A stretch of DNA of 42,364 bases from a virus. Below, one piece after another: positions 21,194 to 40,495 of this stretch; position 1 is the stretch's first letter; every line of letters starts with the position of its first letter. The stretch lies in the IMG/VR virus record IMGVR_UViG_3300033233_000075, positions 1 through 42,364 of that record. One strand, written 5' to 3'. The notes beneath the pieces were generated by a model. It did not search any database. It saw only the letters and a list, made by a program, of their open reading frames with translations, and was not told the DNA's origin. The position numbers and the translations under genes are program-made.

Positions 21194-21336
21194 CGCTGCT
21201 CGCCGCCCTCCTCTGGCTCGCCGTCGCCTGTGCTCCGGTCCGCCCCTCGGCGCCCGGCCTCACCCCGTCTCGAGCCGCCTTCTGCCTCGAACAGCGGTGG
21301 CACGGTATCTGCCTCCCCGAGCCGTACCCCTGCTGA
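21190..21336 (+). CDS. Small putative lipoprotein or secreted peptide
   Basis: 48 residues from GTG 21190 (GTGA overlap). Hydrophobic leader MTLLAALLWLAVAC with Cys14 at a lipobox-like site (LAVA-C, imperfect at -3), followed by a Pro-rich stretch and three more Cys. The size and design resemble outer-membrane spanin subunits (Rz1), although those normally lie in the lysis cassette. Its TGA overlaps the terminase ATG. Moderately supported as a gene, weakly as a lipoprotein. Confidence 0.45.
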   Translation: MTLLAALLWLAVACAPVRPSAPGLTPSRAAFCLEQRWHGICLPEPYPC

Positions 21337-22928
21337 TGGGCGCCGACGTCCGCTTCGCCGCCGAGGCCGCCGACATCCTCGCGCGGCGCTACGAGCAGGA
21401 CGGCCTCCGCGCCCTCCTCGCCGGCGACCCGGGCCCGTTCCCGCACCAGGCGAGCTTCTGGGCGTCGACGAAGGCGCAGGCGTGGATCTTCGGCGCGAAC
21501 CGCTCGGGGAAGACCGAGGCGCTGATGGCCCGCCGGGCCGCCCGCCTCCGCTTCGGGATGAACGACCCGCGCGGCGCGTACGGGAACGGCATCGCGATCT
21601 TCGACCGCGCGGTCAAGTCCGTCGTCGTCTCGCTGAAGCACGAGATGAGCCGGAACGTCGTCCAGCCGAAGCTCTTCAACAACGGCGCCGGCGTCGAGAC
21701 GCGGAAGCCGCTGATCCCGGACGCCGAGATCGCCAACTGGAACATCACGAACCAGACGCTCCGGCTGAAGAACGGCTCGGTCAACATCTTTAAGTCGGGC
21801 GACCAGGGCCCCCGCGCCTTCCAGGGGATAGACGCGGACGACTTCGACTTCGACGAGGTCCCCGACGAGGAGGTCTTCCGCGAGTCGTGCCTCCGGGTCG
21901 GCGGCGGGAAGCGGCTGATGATCCGGGGGGCGGCGACGATCCTCCCGCCCCCGGGCGAGCCCGGCGGCGTCACGTGGATGTACCCGAAGGTCGTCCGCCC
22001 GTGGCTCGACGGCGGGAAGAACGACCCGAACCTCGACATCTTCACCGCGTCGATATACGACAACCCGACGATCCTCCCCGAGGAGATCGAGCGCCTCGAG
22101 GCGCTCTTCCCGCCCGGCACGCCGGAGCACATGATCCGGCTCCGCGGCGCGCTCCTCCCGACGATCGGCGGCTCCCTCGTCTACTCCGCGTTCCTCCGCG
22201 CGTTCCACATGAACCCGGCGATCGCGCCGCTCGACGAGGACGGCGTCCCGCGCCCGAACGTCCACCCGTACCTCCCACTCGTCCTCGCCGTCGACTTCAA
22301 CGCGATGAACGGCGTCTGGCTCGTCGGCCAGAAGGTCAACCGGATGTTCCGCGTCCTCGACGAGATCGCCCTCGAGCGGTCCGACGTCGCGACGATGACG
22401 AACGAGTTCCGGTCCCGCTTCCCAGCGCACTCCGGCGAGCTCTGGGTCTACGGCGACGCGACCGGCCGCCGGCGCGACGGGCAGACCGGCGAGTCGAGCT
22501 TCTACCTGATCCAGGAGTACCTCCAGCGGTACCCGGCGCCGATCCGCTTCGTCCTCCCGCAGGTCAACCCGCCGGTCCGCGACCGGGTCGACGCGGTTAA
22601 CCGCGCGCTGCGGCCGGGCGACGGCGGGAAGATGATCGACATAGCCTCGCACTGCACCCGCCTCGCACACGACCTCGAAGTCGCGAAGTGGCGGGCAAAC
22701 GGGTCGGTCGACAAGTCGAACCCGGCCGAGCAGCTAAACGGGGCGGACGCACTAGGGTACTGGTTGTTCGGAGACTCTCCCGTTCCCCGATACGCCAAGT
22801 CCAGCGCGAACTTAAAATCCGTCCGGGGACCTCGATACACCACCGGAACGGCGCAGTCAGGCCGTCCCTTCCCCGCCGGTGTGACGCAGGTCGGAGGGCG
22901 GCGCTACGGCGCGGCCGCGCATGCCTGA
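21336..22928 (+). CDS. terL: Terminase large subunit
   Basis: 530 residues from ATG 21336. The ATPase has Walker A GANRSGKT (53-60) and Walker B DDFDFDEVP (D173, E174). The C-terminal RNase H-like nuclease has VLAVDFNAMNG (D320) and VYGDATGRRRD (D374), followed by GADALGYWLFG near 475, where the third acidic residue lies. It powers DNA translocation into the prohead and cuts the concatemer. Length is normal for the family. The last 45 residues are less conserved-looking and overlap the HNH gene by eight bases. Confidence 0.92.
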   Translation: MGADVRFAAEAADILARRYEQDGLRALLAGDPGPFPHQASFWASTKAQAWIFGANRSGKTEALMARRAARLRFGMNDPRGAYGNGIAIFDRAVKSVVVSLKHEMSRNVVQPKLFNNGAGVETRKPLIPDAEIANWNITNQTLRLKNGSVNIFKSGDQGPRAFQGIDADDFDFDEVPDEEVFRESCLRVGGGKRLMIRGAATILPPPGEPGGVTWMYPKVVRPWLDGGKNDPNLDIFTASIYDNPTILPEEIERLEALFPPGTPEHMIRLRGALLPTIGGSLVYSAFLRAFHMNPAIAPLDEDGVPRPNVHPYLPLVLAVDFNAMNGVWLVGQKVNRMFRVLDEIALERSDVATMTNEFRSRFPAHSGELWVYGDATGRRRDGQTGESSFYLIQEYLQRYPAPIRFVLPQVNPPVRDRVDAVNRALRPGDGGKMIDIASHCTRLAHDLEVAKWRANGSVDKSNPAEQLNGADALGYWLFGDSPVPRYAKSSANLKSVRGPRYTTGTAQSGRPFPAGVTQVGGRRYGAAAHA

Positions 22929-23235
22929 CAGTAAAGAGCGGGCGCGCCTATACGCTCGCGTGTACCGGCGTCGATTTCCTGAGAAACGTCGCGCGCGAAC
23001 AGATGCAGCTTACCAGATCATCGTGTGGGCTAAACAGCGGCCCTGCGCCGACTGCGCCGTTCGGTACGAACCGCACGTTATGGACTTCGATCATCGCCCA
23101 GGCGTAAACAAACGCTTCGAGCTTGCTCTCGGCCGACGACACGCGCTCGCGACACTGGTTTCGGAGATCGCGAAGTGCGACGTCGTGTGCTCGAACTGCC
23201 ACCGCGAGCGGACATATCGGCGCCTTCATGCTTGA
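22921..23235 (+). CDS. HNH endonuclease between terminase and portal
   Basis: 104 residues from ATG 22921, inside the last codons of the terminase. CADC at 43-46, VMDFDHRPG (D55, H57) and CDVVCSNCHRERTYRR form a zinc-stapled HNH site. HNH proteins next to the terminase are common and some stimulate terminase cutting, but a free-standing homing nuclease is also possible. The first half is basic and helical. It lies in a slightly less GC-rich stretch (22700-23230). Confidence 0.8.
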   Translation: MPDSKERARLYARVYRRRFPEKRRARTDAAYQIIVWAKQRPCADCAVRYEPHVMDFDHRPGVNKRFELALGRRHALATLVSEIAKCDVVCSNCHRERTYRRLHA

Positions 23236-25144
23236 CGTAGACAACGATATCCTCCTCCGCATCTCCCGCCGGTACCTCGACCGCGGCACGCTGAACCGCG
23301 ACCGGAGGAAGCGGAAGAACGCCGAGAACTGGGACGGCTACCTCGGCGAGCAGGACTTCTCGCACAAGGCGGAGTTCCAGTCGCGCGAGGTGACGCCCGG
23401 CTTCCCCCTCGCGGTCGAGCACATCGTCGGGACCTTCGAGCGGGCGCTCACCGACACGGACGACTGGCTCTCGGCGGACGCTCCCGGGATCGGCGAGCCT
23501 GTGATCCCGCCGTCCGCCGTCCGCGGCATCCTCCTGCACTACCTCCAGAGGCTCTGGGTCCCCGGCAACCGGCCGGAGACAACGTACGGCATACAGGTAT
23601 TCGTCGGCGACGCGGTCAAGCGTGGCATCCTCGAGGGCCTCGTCGTCGGCAAGGTCTACCCCGTCCTCGTCAAGCAGCGGCGCTACCGGTACCGCAAGCC
23701 GAAGCACTCCGAGCTCGACCCGGGAGCGTACCCGGCCCACGAGCTCGCGGCCGCCGCCGACCTCGGGAAGCCGACAGACGTCGAGGTGATGCGGCTGGCC
23801 GTCGACCTCGTCCCGTTCGAGGACTACTTCCGGGACCCGTCGCCGGCTCTCCGCTACGAGATACATCGGACCCGCCGGCAGCTCGACGAGCTCCGGGCGA
23901 ACGACGAGTACGACCGGGCCGCCGTCGACACGCTCTACGGGATGGCGGCCGGCGCCGTCGAGGAGTACGCGAGGCGGAACCGGACCGGCGAGAGCTACGT
24001 CGCGCCCGACCCGTACGAGGTCGAGGTCTACGAGGCGTGGGGCGACGTGATCGACGAGACGACCGGCGACGTCCTCTTCGAGAACGTCTTCTGGGCGTGG
24101 TCGGGCGACCAGATCCTCCGCCAGCCGACGCCGAACCCCGCGTGGGACGGGACGCGCCCGTTCATCGTCGCGCCGCTGATCCGCGTCCCGGGCTCGACCG
24201 TCCACAAGGCGCTCGCCGACCACGCGCTCCCGATGTGGCGCGCGGCGAACGAGCTCGTCAACCTCCTCCTCGACGCGGCGATGCGCGGCGCGTGGGGCGT
24301 CGGCCAGGTCCGGCCCGACCTGATGGAGTCGCCCGAGGAGATCGCGGACGGCATTCCGCAGGGGTACACCGCGGTCTTGAAGCCGAACACCCCGATCGGG
24401 CAGAAGTTCTACGAGCGGGTAGACAACGGCGAGGCGAGCCCGGTCTCGCTCGACGGGCTGAACCGCCTCGAGGCGTACGTCGGCGAGGCGCTCGCGACCC
24501 CCGATACGAAACTCGGCCAGCTCCCGTCCCGCCAGGTGAAGGCGACCGAGATCGTCCAGGCGATGCAGGCGTCCGGCTCGCTCTTCGAGTCGATGGCCGC
24601 CCGGTTCGAGGACACGTTCCTCGAGCCGCTCTTCGAGAAGGCGTGGAAGCTGATAATCCAGTACGCGGACGACTTCGTCGTCGAGGAGCTCGTCCAGATA
24701 CTCGGCCCGCGGCTCACTCTCCAGCTCGAGGGGATGACTCCGGCCGAGCGGTGGGCGCTGGTATCCAACGCGAAGTTCAAGGTCCGCGGCCTCCGCGGCG
24801 TGGCTTCTAAGGAGCGGACGTTCAACAAGCTCCTCTCCCTCGTCAACCTCCTCGCGACGTCCTCACAGATCGCCGACGCCTTCGGGCAGACGAAGGACTT
24901 CCAGAAGCTCTTCAATCAGATCGTCGTCGCCTCCGGGATCGATCCGGAGTCGATCGCGCTCGACGAGGCGCCGATGCAGCCCGCGCCGGGGACGGTCGCC
25001 GCCGGCCAGCTTCAGCCCGGGCTCGCCGGGGCGACCGGCGCGTCGCCGCCCGGAGACCAGGCCGCCGCGGCGCAGGCCGCGCAGTCCGCCGAGGCCGGAT
25101 TCGCGCCGAACGCGCCGCAGGCGCCCGGCGCCGCACCCGCGTAG
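23228..25144 (+). CDS. Portal protein
   Basis: 638 residues from ATG 23228, overlapping the HNH stop. Wing and stem elements are visible: IGEPVIPPSAVRGILLHYLQ early, YEVEVYEAWGDVIDETTGDV in the clip-like region, LIRVPGSTVHKALADHALPM and a long helix (LPMWRAANELVNLLLDAAMRG), then RQVKATEIVQAMQASGSLFE. The final about 60 residues are low-complexity Ala/Pro/Gln. Size and position after the terminase fit a podovirus head-tail connector of the T7/P22 kind. It forms the dodecameric DNA gate at one capsid vertex. Confidence 0.85.
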   Translation: MLDVDNDILLRISRRYLDRGTLNRDRRKRKNAENWDGYLGEQDFSHKAEFQSREVTPGFPLAVEHIVGTFERALTDTDDWLSADAPGIGEPVIPPSAVRGILLHYLQRLWVPGNRPETTYGIQVFVGDAVKRGILEGLVVGKVYPVLVKQRRYRYRKPKHSELDPGAYPAHELAAAADLGKPTDVEVMRLAVDLVPFEDYFRDPSPALRYEIHRTRRQLDELRANDEYDRAAVDTLYGMAAGAVEEYARRNRTGESYVAPDPYEVEVYEAWGDVIDETTGDVLFENVFWAWSGDQILRQPTPNPAWDGTRPFIVAPLIRVPGSTVHKALADHALPMWRAANELVNLLLDAAMRGAWGVGQVRPDLMESPEEIADGIPQGYTAVLKPNTPIGQKFYERVDNGEASPVSLDGLNRLEAYVGEALATPDTKLGQLPSRQVKATEIVQAMQASGSLFESMAARFEDTFLEPLFEKAWKLIIQYADDFVVEELVQILGPRLTLQLEGMTPAERWALVSNAKFKVRGLRGVASKERTFNKLLSLVNLLATSSQIADAFGQTKDFQKLFNQIVVASGIDPESIALDEAPMQPAPGTVAAGQLQPGLAGATGASPPGDQAAAAQAAQSAEAGFAPNAPQAPGAAPA

Positions 25145-25154
25145 AGGAGAACAC

Positions 25155-25352
25155 ATGCCGTACGACAGCAATCAGCCGAAGAACCTCGCCGGCGCGAGCC
25201 GGGCGCTACGCACCGGCGGCGAGGAGCTCGCCGAGATCACCGGTGAGCCCGAGGAGCCGGAGCAGCCGCAGGCGGACATCGTCGCCGACGGCTTCCGCCG
25301 GCTCTTCGGCGTGACGAAGTCGGCGAAGAAGTTCGGGAACCCGGAGGAGTAA
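25155..25352 (+). CDS. Small acidic protein
   Basis: 65 residues from ATG 25155 with GAGGAGA upstream. Acidic middle (EELAEITGEPEEPEQPQADI) and a basic C-terminal helix (FRRLFGVTKSAKKFG). Overlaps the next gene by one base (TAATG). Possibly a minor head protein; no family recognised. Confidence 0.55.
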   Translation: MPYDSNQPKNLAGASRALRTGGEELAEITGEPEEPEQPQADIVADGFRRLFGVTKSAKKFGNPEE

Positions 25353-25756
25353 TGCCGCAGCAGCCAGAAGACTACATGTCGACGAAGAACACCGGCGGGA
25401 ACCACCCGCCCCGCGGCGGGAACGACCCGTTCGGGTACGTCAAGGTGAAGCCGGAGCACGCCTACCTAGGCCACTTCCGCCAGTCGCGCTTCCTCCGCGC
25501 CGGGCACAACGCGGTCGCCGCGCCCCTCCCGGGTCAGCGGCCCGTCTCGCCGTACGCCGGGCCGGTCGACCTCACCCCGCCGCTCCCCCGTGCCGGCGTC
25601 CCCGCCTCCTCGGGCGCGGCCGGCGGCTCCGCGAACGTCATCCCCGGCGCCCCCGCCTTCCGCCCGGCCGCCCCCCGCGGCGCCGCCGGCGTCACCCGCC
25701 CGATGCCCCCGCCGGCCGTCTACCCCCGGTACGCGCCGCGGCGCGCCGCACGCTAG
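25352..25756 (+). CDS. Pro-rich protein with YLGHFRQ-type motif
   Basis: 134 residues from ATG 25352. Residues about 37-53 read AYLGHFRQSRFLRAGHN; the following gene carries the matching YLGHFRQGRFAKEGHN near its N-terminus. The remainder is Pro/Ala/Arg-rich and probably disordered. Located between the portal and the scaffold, so it is likely packaged in or used for building the head. No family recognised. Confidence 0.55.
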   Translation: MPQQPEDYMSTKNTGGNHPPRGGNDPFGYVKVKPEHAYLGHFRQSRFLRAGHNAVAAPLPGQRPVSPYAGPVDLTPPLPRAGVPASSGAAGGSANVIPGAPAFRPAAPRGAAGVTRPMPPPAVYPRYAPRRAAR

Positions 25757-25764
25757 GAGGACCG

Positions 25765-26154
25765 ATGCAGAACCAGAACGGAGACATGTTCTCGTACCTC
25801 GGCCATTTCCGGCAGGGCCGGTTCGCCAAGGAGGGCCACAACGACATCGTCACGCCGAAGGGAACCAAGCGGCAGGCGTACCTAGTCGAGCACCCGGTAA
25901 CCGCCGCCCGCCAGAATCTCCGCGGGAGTGTCCGCGCCGCCCGGCTCTCCGCGGCGAGCTCGGCCCGGCAGGCAGGCGCCTCCCGGGCCGGCGTCCGCGC
26001 CGCCGGGCAGGCCGCCCGCGTCGCGGCCAAGCAGAACCGACGCGACGTCGTCGGCGCCGCCCGACTCGACCCGAACGCCCGCGGGCAGGAGCTCTACGCC
26101 GCCGGGCAGGCCCGGCGCGCGAAGAAGTCCCGGGGCGGGACGTACATGCCGTGA
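25765..26154 (+). CDS. Basic Ala-rich protein with YLGHFRQ-type motif
   Basis: 129 residues from ATG 25765 with TAGGAGG upstream. After YLGHFRQGRFAKEGHN at 11-26 it is a long Ala/Arg/Gln helix (SSARQAGASRAGVRAAGQAA) ending in RAKKSRGGTYMP. High positive charge suggests contact with DNA inside the capsid. Shares its motif only with its neighbour. Its stop is overlapped by GTG of the next gene. Confidence 0.55.
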   Translation: MQNQNGDMFSYLGHFRQGRFAKEGHNDIVTPKGTKRQAYLVEHPVTAARQNLRGSVRAARLSAASSARQAGASRAGVRAAGQAARVAAKQNRRDVVGAARLDPNARGQELYAAGQARRAKKSRGGTYMP

Positions 26155-26429
26155 GGCAGACGCAGTTCATCTCTCGCGACAGCTCCGCCCGGCACCCGGA
26201 CATCGGGCGGCCGAACCCGGGGACGTTCGAGGACCTGCCGGCCGCCGCGAAGAGCCACACGCTCGGGGGCGGGCGGCGCAAGAGTCCCGGGGACGGCGCC
26301 GTCTCGAAGAAGATCAGCTACCTCGTCCGCGAGGGGAAGCCGCAGAAGCAGGCGGTCGCGATCGCTCTCTCGATGAAGCGCGCGCATCGGCTGACGCCGT
26401 CGGGCGGCTACAAGAGGGTCGGCCGATGA
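26151..26429 (+). CDS. Small basic protein with duplicated N-terminal tag (1)
   Basis: 92 residues from GTG 26151 (GTGA overlap). Residues 5-24 are QFISRDSSARHPDIGRPNPG, identical to residues 5-24 of the next protein. The rest has SPGDGAVSKKISYLVREGKP followed by a QAVAIALSMKRAHRL helix, a Lys/Arg-rich module seen in other phage proteins, often near portal genes. A DNA-binding or capsid-internal role is likely but not shown. Confidence 0.6.
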   Translation: MRQTQFISRDSSARHPDIGRPNPGTFEDLPAAAKSHTLGGGRRKSPGDGAVSKKISYLVREGKPQKQAVAIALSMKRAHRLTPSGGYKRVGR

Positions 26430-26653
26430 TGGAGAAGCAGTTCATCTCGAGGGACTCGAGCGCCCGCCACCCGGACATCGGCAGGCCGAACCCGGGGAAG
26501 CCGCGGCTCGGGTCGGGCAAGCGGTTCGCCGCGCTCAAGTCGAAGATCGCGAAGCGCGGGGGCGTCCGCGACCCGGGCGCCGTCGCCGCCGCGATCGGCC
26601 GGAAGAAGTACGGTAAGGCTTCGTTCCAGAAGATGGCCGCGGCCGGCCGATGA
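26426..26653 (+). CDS. Small basic protein with duplicated N-terminal tag (2)
   Basis: 75 residues from ATG 26426 (ATGA overlap). After the same 20-residue tag as the preceding protein (residues 5-24) comes a different basic module, RFAALKSKIAKRGGVRDPGA then VAAAIGRKKYGKASFQKMAA, typical of small phage proteins of unknown role. Identical tag on two different modules suggests a targeting signal. Its stop overlaps the next start (ATGA). Confidence 0.6.
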   Translation: MMEKQFISRDSSARHPDIGRPNPGKPRLGSGKRFAALKSKIAKRGGVRDPGAVAAAIGRKKYGKASFQKMAAAGR

Positions 26654-27144
26654 AGCACGAGCTCAGGGACGAGCGCGGCCTCAGCTCCCTCGCGGTCGCC
26701 GCCGACTGGCAGGAGTGGTGGCAGGTCTGGGGCCCGAAGATCGCCGCCGAGCACGGCCGGCAGGGGTGGATACTCCTCCTGCTCGACGCCAACGAGAAGG
26801 TCCAGGAGGTCTCGATGATGCTGTCTCGCGTCCTGCGGAACAAGCCGGAGTATGAAACGACGGGGTGGTCCGAGGCGGAGTGGCTGAACGTCGAGGACCA
26901 GTCCGCCGAGGCCGCCGCGTGGTTCGAGCGGAACGCCGCGTCCCCGATGAAGGACGCGCCGGAGTGGGCGCACTTCCTCTTCTCGTCGCTCCACGGGAAC
27001 CTCACCGTCCTCAAGCGCCTCGGGCGCGAGCTGCGCGCCGTCCAGGACCAGGGCTACCTCGTCGCGACCCTCGAGCGCCGCCCCGGCGTCGGCCTCGAGT
27101 TCGGCGGCGACGCGAAGGAAGTCGTCCTCCGCGAGGCGGACTAG
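26650..27144 (+). CDS. Hypothetical head-region protein
   Basis: 164 residues from ATG 26650. Aromatic-rich alpha/beta (DWQEWWQVWGPKIAAEHG, GWILLLLDANEKVQEVSMML, GWSEAEWLNVEDQSAEAAAW) with an acidic end. No catalytic motif recognised. Lies between the tag proteins and the scaffold. It could be a prohead protease substitute or head completion protein, but nothing in the sequence shows either. Confidence 0.55.
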   Translation: MKHELRDERGLSSLAVAADWQEWWQVWGPKIAAEHGRQGWILLLLDANEKVQEVSMMLSRVLRNKPEYETTGWSEAEWLNVEDQSAEAAAWFERNAASPMKDAPEWAHFLFSSLHGNLTVLKRLGRELRAVQDQGYLVATLERRPGVGLEFGGDAKEVVLREAD

Positions 27145-27499: not shown

Positions 27500-28348
27500 A
27501 TGACGCTACCGCTTGAGAGGTCCGATCCCGCCCCGGGTTCCGTCGACTGGAAGGGCGCCGAGGAGTACATGCTCGGCGCCGGCGACGGCGAAGAGGCCGG
27601 AGAGGGCACAGAGAAGCAGACCGAGACCGCCAGGGAGTTCAGGTACCGCGGGAAGACGGTGACCGTCGACCCCGACACGTACTCCCTCCTCGAGGGCCTC
27701 AAGAACGAGGCCCGCGGGACGAACGGCCGCCTCGGGTCCGAGCTCGCGAAGACGCGTGAGCGCCTCGCGAAGCTGGAGGGAGCCGCCTCCGTCCAGCCGC
27801 ACACCCCTGGGGACGTGGAGCTCACCCCTCCCGACCCGCTCCTCGCGACCCGCGACATCGCCGCGTGGCAGCGTCAGTACGACGACTACCACTCCGCGAA
27901 GACGGCGCGCCAGATGGCGGAGCTCGAGCGGAAGCACTTCTCGTTTGTCAAGGAGGTCGAGACGCGCACCCAACAGGCGCAGGCCCAGAAGGACTGGGCC
28001 GACGGCTTCTACCGCGGGTACGACTACCTCGACCACCCCGACATCAAGCCGATCGTCGCCCAGGCGTACACGGAGAACCGAACGGAGATCGACGGCCTCG
28101 ACCCCGAGGTCGCCTACGAGCGCCTCGCCGAGCTCGCGGACGAGCGGCTGGTCCGCCTCCGCGCCGCCGGGAGAGATGCAGACAAGACACCGACCAACAA
28201 CCGGCGACCGCCGCGCGTCGAGTCGAGCGCCGGCCCGGTGCCCCGCGGAAAGGCCGAGGACGCCCCCAACCGGGAGTTCTCGGCGGCCTCGTGGGTCGCC
28301 AGGCAGCGCCAGAAGATGAACGGGCGGGAGCCGCGCAAGGAGAAGTAA
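27500..28348 (+). CDS. Scaffolding-type protein
   Basis: 282 residues from ATG 27500 with GAGGAGCA upstream. Acidic N-terminus (MLGAGDGEEAGEGTEKQTET), a coiled-coil section (LGSELAKTRERLAKLEGA, ARQMAELERKHFSFVKEVET), and a basic C-terminal helix-rich end (VARQRQKMNGREPRKEK). A highly charged, helical protein immediately before the major capsid protein is the classical arrangement for the internal scaffold that guides prohead assembly, with a positively charged C-terminus binding coat. The stop is three bases from the capsid gene. Confidence 0.7.
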   Translation: MTLPLERSDPAPGSVDWKGAEEYMLGAGDGEEAGEGTEKQTETAREFRYRGKTVTVDPDTYSLLEGLKNEARGTNGRLGSELAKTRERLAKLEGAASVQPHTPGDVELTPPDPLLATRDIAAWQRQYDDYHSAKTARQMAELERKHFSFVKEVETRTQQAQAQKDWADGFYRGYDYLDHPDIKPIVAQAYTENRTEIDGLDPEVAYERLAELADERLVRLRAAGRDADKTPTNNRRPPRVESSAGPVPRGKAEDAPNREFSAASWVARQRQKMNGREPRKEK

Positions 28349-28351
28349 CCG

Positions 28352-29305
28352 ATGGCCTATTCCTGGGACTTCGACGTCCCGACGGGGACGTTCAAGAACA
28401 ACCTGCTCTCCGCGGACGTCTACGAGACGGCGCTGGAGAACTCCGTCGCGATGCGCTTCGTCGAGGTGCAGAGCGAGTTCGGGAAGAACAAGGGCGACAC
28501 GCTCACGTTCACCCGCTTCACCCACATCGCCGAGCCGGCCAGCGCCGAGCTGTCCGAACTCAGCCCGATCCCCGAGGTCTCCTTCAGCCTCGCGACCTCG
28601 ACCTTCGTCGTGAAGGAGTACGGCGTCGCCGTCCCCTACACCGGGAAGCTCGAGACCCTCGCGAAGTACAACATCGAGAACCTGATCCAGCGGACGCTCA
28701 TGGAGCAGAAGCGGCTCGTCCTCGACACGCTCGCACTGACCAACTACGACGACAGCAACGTCAAGTACGTCCCGACCGGCCCGGCGACCTCGAGCATCAC
28801 CTTCAACGGCACCGCGTCGGGAACCGCGCAGGCGGGCCTGAACTACTTCCACGTCGAGGACATCTCCTCCCTGATGTTCGACCGCCTCAACATCCCGTAC
28901 TTCGAGGGGGAGAACTACATCTACATCTCGCGCGGGAAGAGCCTCACCGCTCTCCGGCGGGACTCGCAGTTCGTCTCCTGGAACCAGTACACGAACCCCG
29001 GCATCAAGGTCAAGGGTGAGATCGGGACCGTCGAGCGCATCCGGTTCATCGAGACGAACCACGCGACCGGCCTCCCGTACGTCGGCTCCAACTCCTTCGG
29101 GAGCGGGGTCGTCTTCGGCCAGGACGGCGTCGGGATGATCGAGGCGGAGGCGCCGCACCTCCGCGCCGCGCTCCCCTCGGGGCACGGCCGCTTCAAGTCG
29201 ATCGCCTGGTACGGGCTCTTCGGCTTCAACACGATCTTCACGGGCGCGACCACGGAGCCGACCTCCAAGGGAACGACCCGCGTGATCCACGTCACCAGCG
29301 CGTAA
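28352..29305 (+). CDS. Major capsid protein
   Basis: 317 residues from ATG 28352. It begins VYETALENSVAMRFVEVQSE, then GDTLTFTRFTHIAEPASAEL, LATSTFVVKEYGVAVPYTGKL and IENLIQRTLMEQKRLVLDTL, a pattern of an HK97-fold coat (long N-arm, E-loop, spine helix) resembling N4/P22-type coat proteins. Position after the scaffold, length and the hairpin that follows all fit. It would form the icosahedral shell. Not assigned to a precise family by eye. Confidence 0.8.
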   Translation: MAYSWDFDVPTGTFKNNLLSADVYETALENSVAMRFVEVQSEFGKNKGDTLTFTRFTHIAEPASAELSELSPIPEVSFSLATSTFVVKEYGVAVPYTGKLETLAKYNIENLIQRTLMEQKRLVLDTLALTNYDDSNVKYVPTGPATSSITFNGTASGTAQAGLNYFHVEDISSLMFDRLNIPYFEGENYIYISRGKSLTALRRDSQFVSWNQYTNPGIKVKGEIGTVERIRFIETNHATGLPYVGSNSFGSGVVFGQDGVGMIEAEAPHLRAALPSGHGRFKSIAWYGLFGFNTIFTGATTEPTSKGTTRVIHVTSA

Positions 29306-33134: not shown

Positions 33135-33847
33135 TGGCGGAGCGGTGTGGCGGGGTCATCGGGGGGAGCGTTCCCCCGCCGGGGTTCGGGGGCGGGGGAC
33201 TCGGCGACGAGCCGGAGCCGGCCGAGATCTTTCGCCCGTACGCGGGCGGCAGGTACTACTGCGAGACGATGTGCCTCCAGACCGGCACGAACGAGAAGAT
33301 CAGCTCGAACTCGGGTACGGTCGCCGCCCTGACGAACATCGGGCCGCTGTTCTGCGGCGGGAGCATCTCGTGGACGAGCATCGGGGCCGTCATGCGCTTC
33401 GCGAGCTCGCCGGGCACGCCGCCGAACACGTACTTCGTGATCTACGGCCTCGACACAGATACGCTCTTCCCGACGACGCTCCTGTACCAGGGGTCAGCCC
33501 ACGCGCAGGGTACAACGCTCGCCTTCGTCTCGGACTCAATCGCGATTACGACGTCGCACAAGTGGATCGGGATAGGTTGGCACTGCGACGGGGGCGGACT
33601 AGGCGTCCTCACGGAGAATGCGGCGTTCCGCGCGGGCGGCCCGCTCGCCGCCGCCGGGCTCGGCCAGGCGTACGCCCCGTACGGCTTCAGCCAGTCGGGA
33701 ACGACGCTGACCCCGATCATCACGCTCTCCGCTAACCAGGCGTCGGGGACGGCGTCGGCGGCGCTCCCCAGCGCGTTCAGCGTGACCCCCGACGCGACGG
33801 TCGTGAACCCGACCCTAAGCACCGGAACCTACATCCGACGAGCATGA
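33134..33847 (+). CDS. Tail-associated beta protein
   Basis: 237 residues from ATG 33134. Gly/Pro-rich start (GGVIGGSVPPPGFGGGGLGD) and a jelly-roll-like body (NTYFVIYGLDTDTLFPTTLL, HKWIGIGWHCDGGGLGVLTE) with several Cys early (C5, C43, C47). It looks like a receptor-binding or distal tail beta sandwich. Its stop overlaps the GNAT start (ATGA). No family recognised. Confidence 0.55.
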   Translation: MAERCGGVIGGSVPPPGFGGGGLGDEPEPAEIFRPYAGGRYYCETMCLQTGTNEKISSNSGTVAALTNIGPLFCGGSISWTSIGAVMRFASSPGTPPNTYFVIYGLDTDTLFPTTLLYQGSAHAQGTTLAFVSDSIAITTSHKWIGIGWHCDGGGLGVLTENAAFRAGGPLAAAGLGQAYAPYGFSQSGTTLTPIITLSANQASGTASAALPSAFSVTPDATVVNPTLSTGTYIRRA

Positions 33848-34293
33848 TCGAGTACCGCCTCCTCGACCCGCCCGACGTCCCCGGCGTCCTCCCCCTCGTC
33901 CTCGAGTTCGAGGCGGCGATCGCGAATCCCGTCATCCAGATCGACCCGGCGGCATTCGTCCAGAACTGGACCCGCTTCCTCGAGATCGACGTCGGCTTCG
34001 TCATCCTCGCGTCCGACGACGGGCGGCCGGTCGGCGGGCTCTCCGCCTACCTCGTCCCGAACGACTTGAACGGGTCGGCCGTCGCGCAGGAGACGTGGTG
34101 GTTCGTCAAGCCGGAGTACCGTGGGAGGGGTGTCGGCGACGCGCTCCTCGAGCTGTTCGAGCGGTACGCCAGGAGCCGCGGCGCGCTCCGGGTGAGCATG
34201 GGCGTCATCCTCCACCTCACACCTGTTGCCGACCTCCTGACCACGAGGGGCTACACGCCCTTCGAGACGATCTTCTATAAGTGGCTCGGATAA
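33844..34293 (+). CDS. GNAT family acetyltransferase
   Basis: 149 residues from ATG 33844 (ATGA overlap). Motif A WWFVKPEYRGRGVGDALLELF (R-G-R-G-V-G at 93-98) is the acetyl-CoA pyrophosphate loop. Preceding strands GFVILASDDGRPVGGLSAYL complete the GNAT core, and SRGALRVSMG and a Tyr in RGYTPFETIFYKWLG close it. It would transfer an acetyl group to an unknown acceptor. The gene overlaps the oxygenase-like gene and sits among tail genes, where GNATs occur in other podoviruses; the substrate is unknown. Confidence 0.85.
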   Translation: MIEYRLLDPPDVPGVLPLVLEFEAAIANPVIQIDPAAFVQNWTRFLEIDVGFVILASDDGRPVGGLSAYLVPNDLNGSAVAQETWWFVKPEYRGRGVGDALLELFERYARSRGALRVSMGVILHLTPVADLLTTRGYTPFETIFYKWLG

Positions 34294-37102: not shown

Positions 37103-40100
37103 GTGCCGCGCTTCCGCGTCCCGACCGACTCGGGCACGTTCGAGGTCGAGACCGACATCGCCGACCCGACGGACGAGGAGCTCCTCGCCCTCGTCGGCGG
37201 TCAGCCTGCGCCAGAGGGGCCGGGACTCGCCCGCCGCGGCGCGGCGTTCGCCGCCCGGGTCGTCGGACCGATCGTCGGCGGGATCGGCGGCGCGGCGGTC
37301 GGCGGCCCCGTCGGCGCCGTCGCCGGCGCGGCGGCCGGGGGCGCGAGCGGGGCGGCGCTCGCCGAGAAGATACTCGGTGAGCCGCTCGATCCGATGGACA
37401 TCGCGCTCTCCGGTGTCCTCGCGGCCGTCCCCGCCGGCCCGTTCGCTCGGGCGGCGGCCCGACCGGGGCTGACCGTCGCGAAGCAGGTCCTCCTCCACGC
37501 GGCCGAGGGCGCGACGCAGGGCGCGCTCGCGGCCCAGGCGGAGTCGATCGCCCGCGAGGGGGAGCCGGCCGGGATCGCCCAGACGCTCGGCGGGGCCGCC
37601 GGCGGAGCCGTCCTCGGCGGCGGAGCCGGCTTGATCGTCGGCCGGGCGGCGCACGTCCCCGGCGCCCCGGCGGAGGCTCGAGCGGTCGCGAAAGAGGTCG
37701 AGGCCGAGGCGCAGGGCCCGCTCTTCCAGCGCGTCCCCGGGCTGGCCGGCGAGGTCCCACCGAAGACGGCGCCCCCGCCCGAGCGGGTCACCGAGCTCCA
37801 GGACAGCGTCGACCGCCTCTTCCCGCACCTCGGCGACCTAGAGAGGACGTCGCTCAAGGCGACGATCGCGGACGCCGGCGACGACCTCCTCGCCCACAGC
37901 CGGAGCGTCCAGTCGATCGAGCGGACGGACGCACTCGCGCAGGAGCTCGTCCTCGACCTCTCGAGGCCGCTCCCGAAGGGGACGGCGCTCAACGCCGAGC
38001 AGATGCGCCACGTCGTCAACCTCGTCGCGCCGCTCCAGGAGCGCGTGACCGCACTCGCCGGAGAGGTCGCCGCCAACCCGGGGGACGACGCGGTCAAGCT
38101 CGACCTCCAGCGGGCGTCGACCCGGCTCGCGAACGTCCTCTTCTCGTACTCCGGCGCGCGGGCCGAGGCCGGCCGGACCCTCAACATCCTCCGCGAGCAG
38201 GCGAAGGCGCTCGACGTCGGCGACGCGAAGGCGATCCTCGCCGCCCGCCGCCTCGGCGTCGACGCGGACTCGATCGCGAAGGTGATCGCCGCCTCCCCGA
38301 ACGACCCCGTCAGCCAGTACCGCCAGCTCCGGGACATGTACCGGCCGGACTGGAAGGACAAGCTGAAGTGGTACTACTACACGAACATCTTGTCCGGGCC
38401 GCAGACGCACGTCCGGAACCTCGTCTCGAACACCGTCAACCTCGCGCTCCGGCCGGCGACGACGCCGTTCGCGGCGGCGGCGGACGCTGCCGGCGCGAAG
38501 CTGACCGGGCGGCAGCGCGAGGTCTTCCTCGGCGAGGCGCCGATCCAGCTCCAGCAGATGTACCACGCGCTCCCCGACGCGTGGAACAAGATGGCATTCA
38601 TGTTCCGGAACGGCTTCTCGCTCTCGGACGTCCAGGACTTCGAGGTCCGGCCGGCGGAGATGCCAGGCGGTGTCGCGGTCAACGTCGTCGGCCGGGCGCT
38701 CGGGGCGGCGGACGAGTTCTTCCGCGGACTCGGCTTCTCGATGGAGCTGCACTCGGGCGCGTTCGCCCGCGCCCGGAAGCAGGCACTCGCCGAGGGGCTC
38801 GACGGACAGGAGCTCCTCGACCGGACGTCGGCGTTGACCGCCGACCTCCTCGACAAGAAACCGGCCGACCTGATGACGCAGGCCGAGGAGTTCTCGAGGC
38901 GGGTGACGTTCCAGGAGCAGGACAACGCCGTCGCCCGCGGCCTCCTCGCCTTCCGCGACGCGGTCCCGGGCGGGTCGTTCCTCGTCCCGTTCGTCCGGAC
39001 GCCGGCGAACATCTTCCGCCAGGGGCTCCACTTCTCGCCGGCCGGGCTCCTGATGAAGGGGGCGGGGCCGGGGAGGGCGGGCGCGCAGCGGGTCGGCGAG
39101 GCCGTCCTCGGGTCGACGCTCCTCGTCCCCGTCGCGTGGCTCGCGGCGGCCGGGAAGATCACCGGCGCGGCGCCGACGGACGCGGGCGAGCGCGACGCGT
39201 TCTACGGCGCCGGGAAGCAGCCGAACAGCATCCTCATCGGGGACAGGTGGGTCAGCTACGCCGAGGCCGGCCCGCTCGTCCTCCCGTTCACGATCGTCGC
39301 GAACGCGGCGGACGCGTACCGGCGGTCGGGCGGCAAGATCAACCAGGAGACGGTCGGGACGATCGTCGGCCAGGTCGGGAAGTCGCTCCTCGACCAGAGC
39401 TACCTCACGTCGCTCTCCGCCGTCTTCGAGGCGCTGAACGACCCCGAGCGGTACGGCGAGGCGTTCGTCCAGAACCTCGCGTCCGGGCTGATCCCTCTCG
39501 TCGGCCTCCAGCGGAACGTCACCCGGGCGACCGACCCGTACGTCCGGCAGGCGACCGGCGTCGTCCAGGGGCTACAGCGGAACGTCCCGGGCGAGTCGAA
39601 GAAGCTCCTGCCGAAGCTCGACGCGCTCGGCCAGCCGATCGAGCACCCGACTGGCCCCGGCGCCCTCCTCGTTCCGAAGGTCTCGCCGGTCCGCGCCGAC
39701 CCGGTCCGCGAGGAGCTCGCGCGCGTCGGCGTCCAGATCGAGCCGCTCCGCCGGTCGAAGTCGGTTACCGTCGGCGACGAGAAGGTCCCGCTCGACGACG
39801 CCTCGGACTTCGCGATCAGGAAGTCTACCGGCGCGTTTCGCGTCGTTCTTCTTCGCGACCTTTTCGCGGACCCAGAGTACCAGTCGGCGACGAAGGAGGA
39901 GCAGGCCGCCGCGGTCACGCGCGAGGTCCGCCGGGCGGGGAGCGCCGCCTTGAGGGGGGCCCGGGAGCTGCTCGGCGCGGGCAGCCCGGTGACGTTCGAG
40001 GCGCTGACGGAGGGCGTCGACCTCGGCGCGCAGCCGGCCCCGGGGCCTACCGCACCCGCCCCACCGGCGAGCCCGACGACGACGCTACCGGCCGGGCCGC

Positions 40101-40495
40101 CGAGCCGGTTCGACGACGTCTTCGGGAGTGTCGGCGCCCGGACTGGCATCGACCCGACGCTCCTGAAGGCCGTCGCGAAGGTCGAGTCGAACTTCAACCC
40201 GGGGGCCCGGAGCGAGAAGCACGCCGTCGGCCTCCTCCAGCTCCTCCCGGCGACGTTCGCGGCGTACGCGGACGGGGTGCGCCGGGTAACCGGGAAGCAG
40301 CCTAGGATCACCGACCCGACAGACAACACGATCGCGGGCGCTCTTCTCTACCGGGACCTCCTCGGCCAGACCGGCGGCAACATCGAGGCGGCGGCGCGCC
40401 TCTACCACGGCGGGCCCTCGCCGAAGCAACACGGCCCGAAGACCCTCGCGTACGGGAAGAAGGTCGCGGCGGCGTACGCGGCCCTCCGCGAGTAG
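37103..40495 (+). CDS. Large internal virion protein with lytic transglycosylase domain
   Basis: 1130 residues from GTG 37103. N-terminal beta piece (FRVPTDSGTFEVETDIADPT) leads to a glycine-zipper hydrophobic stretch (IVGGIGGAAVGGPVGAVAGA) able to insert into membrane. A long helical body follows. Residues about 1000-1130 are a soluble lytic transglycosylase fold: GIDPTLLKAVAKVESNFNPG with catalytic E1028, HAVGLLQLLPATF and NIEAAARLYHGG. It would open peptidoglycan locally during DNA ejection, like T7 gp16. In T7 the enzyme domain is N-terminal, whereas here it is C-terminal. Confidence 0.85.
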   Translation: MPRFRVPTDSGTFEVETDIADPTDEELLALVGGQPAPEGPGLARRGAAFAARVVGPIVGGIGGAAVGGPVGAVAGAAAGGASGAALAEKILGEPLDPMDIALSGVLAAVPAGPFARAAARPGLTVAKQVLLHAAEGATQGALAAQAESIAREGEPAGIAQTLGGAAGGAVLGGGAGLIVGRAAHVPGAPAEARAVAKEVEAEAQGPLFQRVPGLAGEVPPKTAPPPERVTELQDSVDRLFPHLGDLERTSLKATIADAGDDLLAHSRSVQSIERTDALAQELVLDLSRPLPKGTALNAEQMRHVVNLVAPLQERVTALAGEVAANPGDDAVKLDLQRASTRLANVLFSYSGARAEAGRTLNILREQAKALDVGDAKAILAARRLGVDADSIAKVIAASPNDPVSQYRQLRDMYRPDWKDKLKWYYYTNILSGPQTHVRNLVSNTVNLALRPATTPFAAAADAAGAKLTGRQREVFLGEAPIQLQQMYHALPDAWNKMAFMFRNGFSLSDVQDFEVRPAEMPGGVAVNVVGRALGAADEFFRGLGFSMELHSGAFARARKQALAEGLDGQELLDRTSALTADLLDKKPADLMTQAEEFSRRVTFQEQDNAVARGLLAFRDAVPGGSFLVPFVRTPANIFRQGLHFSPAGLLMKGAGPGRAGAQRVGEAVLGSTLLVPVAWLAAAGKITGAAPTDAGERDAFYGAGKQPNSILIGDRWVSYAEAGPLVLPFTIVANAADAYRRSGGKINQETVGTIVGQVGKSLLDQSYLTSLSAVFEALNDPERYGEAFVQNLASGLIPLVGLQRNVTRATDPYVRQATGVVQGLQRNVPGESKKLLPKLDALGQPIEHPTGPGALLVPKVSPVRADPVREELARVGVQIEPLRRSKSVTVGDEKVPLDDASDFAIRKSTGAFRVVLLRDLFADPEYQSATKEEQAAAVTREVRRAGSAALRGARELLGAGSPVTFEALTEGVDLGAQPAPGPTAPAPPASPTTTLPAGPPSRFDDVFGSVGARTGIDPTLLKAVAKVESNFNPGARSEKHAVGLLQLLPATFAAYADGVRRVTGKQPRITDPTDNTIAGALLYRDLLGQTGGNIEAAARLYHGGPSPKQHGPKTLAYGKKVAAAYAALRE

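Follow-up and report, generated by a model that had tools for sequence, protein, structure and literature searches.

To our knowledge, little is known beyond phages T4 and P1 of the sequence signals by which proteins enter phage heads. The internal proteins of T4 are diverse except for a common capsid-targeting sequence (PMC3012670), and in P1 a reporter is carried into capsids by 30 N-terminal residues of the protein DarB (PMC9024508). In the crassvirus phi-crAss001, phage-coded cargo proteins are stored in the head and tail and then ejected (PMC10172136).

The locus analyzed here resembles T4 IPI-IPIII in that a short N-terminal peptide is found on several otherwise different small proteins, namely tag A on p1 and p2 and tag B on p3 and p4. 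However, the phage is of an unrelated type, no protease was found among about 20 head and tail ORFs, and the head location of its proteins is putative; in addition, the modules downstream of the tags belong to widespread head-cluster families, and the two tags are exchanged between modules. As in DarB, where about 30 N-terminal residues form the head address, tag B is N-terminal, but DarB is a 250 kDa protein, whereas here adjacent small proteins each carry a copy of the putative address tag. The cargo of phi-crAss001 differs in being large (gp45, 90.8 kDa; gp46, 60.2 kDa) and RNA-polymerase-related, and the likeness to it is one of function only, not of compared sequences. By analogy, the best reading is that the tags would work like the capsid-targeting sequence of T4, which, if true, would supply podovirus heads with a new loading tag. 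The natural duplication of a tag with swapped cargo constitutes a direct test system for head targeting, and a head-assembly context is now given to the modules M1 (phrog_2423) and M2, two common phage families of no known function.

Gene content of the head cluster

The window, which is the whole stretch of DNA analyzed, is a separate virus record of 42,364 bases (IMGVR_UViG_3300033233_000075) from an uncultivated short-tailed phage. Its head genes follow the order portal-p0-p1-p2-p3-p4-p5-p6-scaffold-capsid, with overlapping start and stop codons at several junctions. The relevant features, with the strand where assigned, are listed below.

21297-22928: terminase
23228..25144, + strand: portal, SU10-type (Pfam PF23899, E=1.9e-13), at the upstream end of the cluster
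25352..25756, + strand: p1, 134 aa, basic, Pro/Ala-rich, with tag A
25451..25510, + strand: tag A copy 1, PEHAYLGHFRQSRFLRAGHN, in p1
25765..26154, + strand: p2, 129 aa, pI 11.7, Ala/Arg-rich tail, with tag A
25783..25842, + strand: tag A copy 2, DMFSYLGHFRQGRFAKEGHN, in p2
26151..26429, + strand: p3, 92 aa, pI 11.4, GTG start overlapping the p2 stop; tag B, linker, and M1
26163..26222, + strand: tag B copy 1, QFISRDSSARHPDIGRPNPG, residues 5-24 of p3
26292..26396, + strand: M1, residues 48-82 of p3 (phrog_2423, E=3.2e-8)
26426..26653, + strand: p4, 75 aa, pI 11.7, ATG start overlapping the p3 stop; tag B and M2
26438..26497, + strand: tag B copy 2, QFISRDSSARHPDIGRPNPG, residues 5-24 of p4
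26504..26650, + strand: M2, residues 27-75 of p4 (77 relatives in IMG/VR)
26650..27144, + strand: p5, acidic, 164 aa, also the next gene in close relatives
27500..28348, + strand: scaffold-like protein, immediately 5' of the capsid gene
28352..29305, + strand: major capsid protein (phrog_1357, E=1.8e-12)
37103-40495: internal virion protein with a lytic domain

The start codon of the portal at 23228 was picked by comparison with relatives, and the scaffold-like protein at 27500-28348, which had no PHROG match, was labeled by its position only. Closely related contigs were few, numbering about eight. No close cultivated relatives were found, the nearest portals sharing 23-27% identity across half the length, and scans of GTDB genomes with the portal and capsid recovered no prophage relatives. 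Additionally, an acetyltransferase gene (phrog_1249, E=6e-21) was observed at 33844-34293, within the structural gene block.

Distribution of tags A and B

An earlier note on this DNA had described two distinct small basic proteins, encoded between the portal and the scaffold, that carry the same 20-residue tag. Both ORFs were present, with QFISRDSSARHPDIGRPNPG at residues 5-24 in each, and the modules that follow are indeed basic (pI 11.4 for p3 and 11.7 for p4) and distinct, as the C-terminal parts of the two proteins had no detectable homology. The similarity between p3 and p4 dropped to background level directly beyond both edges of tag B, and a search of the whole record with tag B returned exactly two sites (E = 2.5e-11 each). 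No additional copy was above background in the window or in the fetched loci. The possibility that p3 and p4 are plain paralogues, with M1 homologous to M2, was not supported, as BLASTP aligned the tag alone and hhalign gave probabilities of 0.1 and 1.3 for the full and module-only profiles, despite both aligning at a short AVAxA helix.

The neighbors p1 and p2 were found to have a second tag in common, YLGHFRQxRFxxxGHN (E = 9e-9), which had been missed in the earlier note. Across the clade, tag A occurred twice in the window, L079, and L161, and once in L078, L080, L170, and L182, so that the tandem pair of the window was seen again in L161 and L079. As a rule, a basic tail rich in Ala and Arg came after it, and M1 and M2 were absent from the tag A proteins of most relatives. 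The earlier note had proposed a search for tag B in other phages; this tag was met in one relative only (L078), for a total of two genomes.

The M1 module carried tag B in the window and in L078, tag A in L079 (the second copy, directly before M1), and no tag in L080. Since the same module bears tag B, tag A, or none among relatives, the tags and modules have been recombined at one locus. No gene similar to p3 or p4 was found in the examined region of L161, L170, or L182, and in the more distant relative L186 the same slot was occupied by two Lys/Ala-rich proteins without tag A. The second tag on p1 and p2, the mixing of tags and modules among relatives, the spread of the modules, and the predicted structural contrast between tag and modules are new in this analysis.

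A few other observations were made in these loci. In the distant relative L195, a 68-aa protein encoded after the portal (L195:10938-11144) contains HDYLGEHQTGMQEGHTKS, which looks reminiscent of tag A. An ORF in L080 (L080:4023-4682), located between the scaffold-like and capsid genes, includes LAGIIDGEG, a LAGLIDADG-like homing endonuclease motif identified by eye. Among all fetched loci, no further clear case of adjacent small proteins with a common tag was found by a longest-ORF method, which is insensitive and missed p3 and p4 themselves.

Modules M1 and M2 in other phages

Residues 48-82 of p3 aligned to positions 9-43 of the 52-position phrog_2423 profile, matching its conserved core, and helices were predicted at residues 49-60 and 65-77. 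The Pfam family DUF6496 is possibly related to phrog_2423, while p3 itself had no DUF6496 match. M1 is widespread in phages, normally without a tag, and an N-terminal tag of this kind was present among phrog_2423 members only in p3, L078, and L079. When p3 was searched by tblastn against 50,697 phage records, it matched through M1 only, in five records.

The genomic context of M1 often involved head genes. For example, M1 (phrog_2423, E=5e-16) forms residues 1-40 of the head maturation protease (phrog_2229, E = 2e-142) of Acinetobacter phage vB_Aba_QH4 (PQ227708.1, L178:5001-6341). In Cronobacter phage GAP52, Enterobacter phage phiEap-2, and cyanophage KBS-S-2A, it lay within or close to the head genes, and in L119 and L095 it formed the C-terminus of modular proteins adjoining portal and MuF-like genes. 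The M1 of Caulobacter phage phiCbK was found inside a tRNA array, far from head genes. A fusion of M1 to the endonuclease VII gene of phage PA11 was rejected: because that gene has no phrog_2423 match, the M1 frame simply overlaps its end. Separately, M1 matches were present in 79 Acinetobacter phage records.

A group of proteins with a beads-on-a-string arrangement was also observed (L119:3884-5038, L137:1094-2149, L114:281-1396, L111:5011-6114, L107:2283-3074, and also L095:3886-6159). These have a constant start, MGGMSTRNEIKARLGILAEP, in the L107 to L143 group and a fixed C-terminal M1 (phrog_2423). Between the two lie varied cassettes with copies of the linker ASRPGAKAKM/F in between, and the cassettes are swapped among contigs. 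The linkers occurred two to six times per ORF in about 20 loci.

The M2 module of p4, with predicted helices at residues 31-44, 50-62, and 64-72, had no Pfam or PHROG match and has the core GKRFAALK...DPGAVAAAIGRKKYGK..FQKMAA. It shared up to 81% identity with untagged members of this widespread and normally untagged family. No M2 outside the window carried tag B, and a tblastn search of the same 50,697 phage records with p4 returned nothing. Among 125 large ORFs adjoining M2 in 48 loci, the commonest PHROG matches were portal, terminase, capsid, and scaffold. In L008, M2 was located inside an ORF similar to the XkdF-like protease, with weak matches.

Within 722 kb of M2 loci, M1-type matches were found less than 500 bp from M2 in six loci (L017, L025, L037, L054, L065, and L068), which makes p3-p4 a recurrent gene pair to which one tag was added in this phage. 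Two other M1-type matches occurred, one inside the L008 ORF that bears M2 and another in L064; the latter overlaps M2 in a different frame and looks spurious. The M1-type and M2 genes adjoin and sometimes overlap in unrelated phages (L025, L037, L065, and L068), and the M1 of L017 and L054 is DUF6496-like.

The AlphaFold models predicted tag B to be disordered (pLDDT of 49-70, indicating low order) and M1 and M2 to be small helical domains (pLDDT of 84-95). Relatives of the models in the PDB were absent for p4 and not significant for p3, and the p4 model matched only unnamed phage proteins in BFVD (best E 0.02). Neither p3 nor p4 matched an internal-protein family in Pfam or PHROGs.

Possible roles and age of the tags

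Tags A and B may be clade-specific docking peptides that guide small basic head proteins to a common prohead partner, a reading to which we give about an even chance of being correct. We infer that the tagged proteins bind such a partner, enter the head, and bind DNA. Each tag would bind one phage-specific head component during prohead assembly, with the scaffold, the portal, and the conserved acidic p5 as the likeliest candidates. The cargo, small and strongly basic proteins of helical or histone-like character (M1, M2, and the Ala/Arg tails), would thereby reach the inside or the surface of the prohead and bind DNA or the core there. Targeting of the prohead by tag B, as the earlier note had suggested, is plausible, because the modules are head-cluster proteins elsewhere, the tag is predicted to be disordered, and relatives have exchanged tags and modules. 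A strict form of such targeting is weakened by the M1 of L080, which is untagged, and that of L079, which bears tag A, by the presence of tag B in two genomes only, and by the lack of a prohead protease match among about 20 head and tail ORFs. The cargo also varies, since the tail of p1 is Pro/Ala-rich rather than histone-like and the tag A-M1 protein of L079 is weakly basic (pI 8.9).

A broader version of this reading, which we hold only tentatively and consider rather doubtful, is an exchangeable address code. Two or more clade-specific N-terminal docking peptides would move among small DNA-binding modules, comprising M1, M2, and the Ala/Arg tails, with the cargo and the address evolving separately; M1 and M2, both common to many unrelated phages, would then belong to a general and unnamed class of prohead proteins.

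The roles of tag and cargo are possibly reversed, because M1 and M2 are associated with the head genes of unrelated phages. In such a case the modules would be the address, through binding to DNA, the core, or the shell, and the tags would be the working part, such as effector or interaction peptides that travel with the head or are injected into host cells. This is consistent with the recurrence of M1 and M2 on head-cluster proteins of unrelated phages, with M1 as the common C-terminal end of variable cassette proteins, and with the clade-specificity of the tags. The modules do not need tag B, as shown by the untagged M1 of L080 and the lack of a tagged M2 outside the window, and if M1 and M2 localize to the head themselves, tag B need not be an address. 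However, we consider the reversal unlikely: in most relatives, the proteins with tag A have an Ala/Arg-rich tail at their end and neither M1 nor M2, and the small M1 and M2 proteins that occur untagged are encoded by whole genes with no extra working part.

Docking to a partner outside the head, such as the RNA polymerase or nucleoid of the host, or a phage factor for replication or packaging, is judged improbable. The location between portal and capsid genes recurs, and M1 is fused to a head maturation protease, both of which argue against non-virion DNA-binding proteins that happen to be encoded in the head cluster. On the other side, all tagged proteins are small and basic, and M1 is far from head genes in some cultivated phages, e.g., in the tRNA array of phiCbK.

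The putative docking of both tag B copies to one partner can be compared with their pattern of substitution. The two copies are 11/60 nucleotides apart and differ in seven codons with no residue change; the seven silent codon changes agree with the earlier note. Given these silent differences, conserved DNA, i.e., a regulatory or recombination site, was rejected as the reason for the repeat. Independent draws from the genome codon usage would be expected to yield 7.9 silent codon differences (P(<=7) = 0.42), and the match of the seven observed to this expectation indicates that the silent sites are saturated. In neutral simulations, one of 300,000 retained the tag B peptide at at least seven nucleotide changes. 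The view that the duplication is old and the peptide under selection is thus upheld, with saturated silent sites and 0/20 residues changed.

The tag B of L078, MRETQFVSHDSHARHPDVGMPNPG, is a single copy on an M1 protein and differs from that of p3 at 5/20 residues and five silent codons. Hence, the constraint on tag B is shared within a genome and is not absolute. At similar silent divergence, the change of 0/20 residues within and 5/20 between genomes was different by Fisher's test (P = 0.047, from two genomes), which is as expected if the two copies track one partner, in a comparison of two genomes only.

The same data bear on whether the tags are identical through descent and not through a shared function, as a side effect of mosaic gene growth. 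In that view, the 5' part of one gene was duplicated onto its neighbor, or a close relative donated an M2 gene that already bore the tag. Tags have been copied repeatedly, as in the tag A pairs of the window, L079, and L161, and tag B is in two genomes only. In contrast, the saturated silent sites with 0/20 residues changed, and the switch of codon box in 2/3 Ser codons with the residue kept, make this origin very unlikely. Finally, a propeptide cut off by a prohead protease, i.e., a strict T4-type capsid-targeting sequence, would agree with N-terminal tags common to several small basic proteins but is considered very improbable here. A PHROGs scan of about 20 head and tail ORFs gave no match to a head maturation protease, although one of an unknown type could escape such a scan.

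Additionally, the two Ser codons of tag B that changed between the TCN and AGY boxes did so in opposite directions between the copies, possibly because direct repetition of the DNA was selected against.
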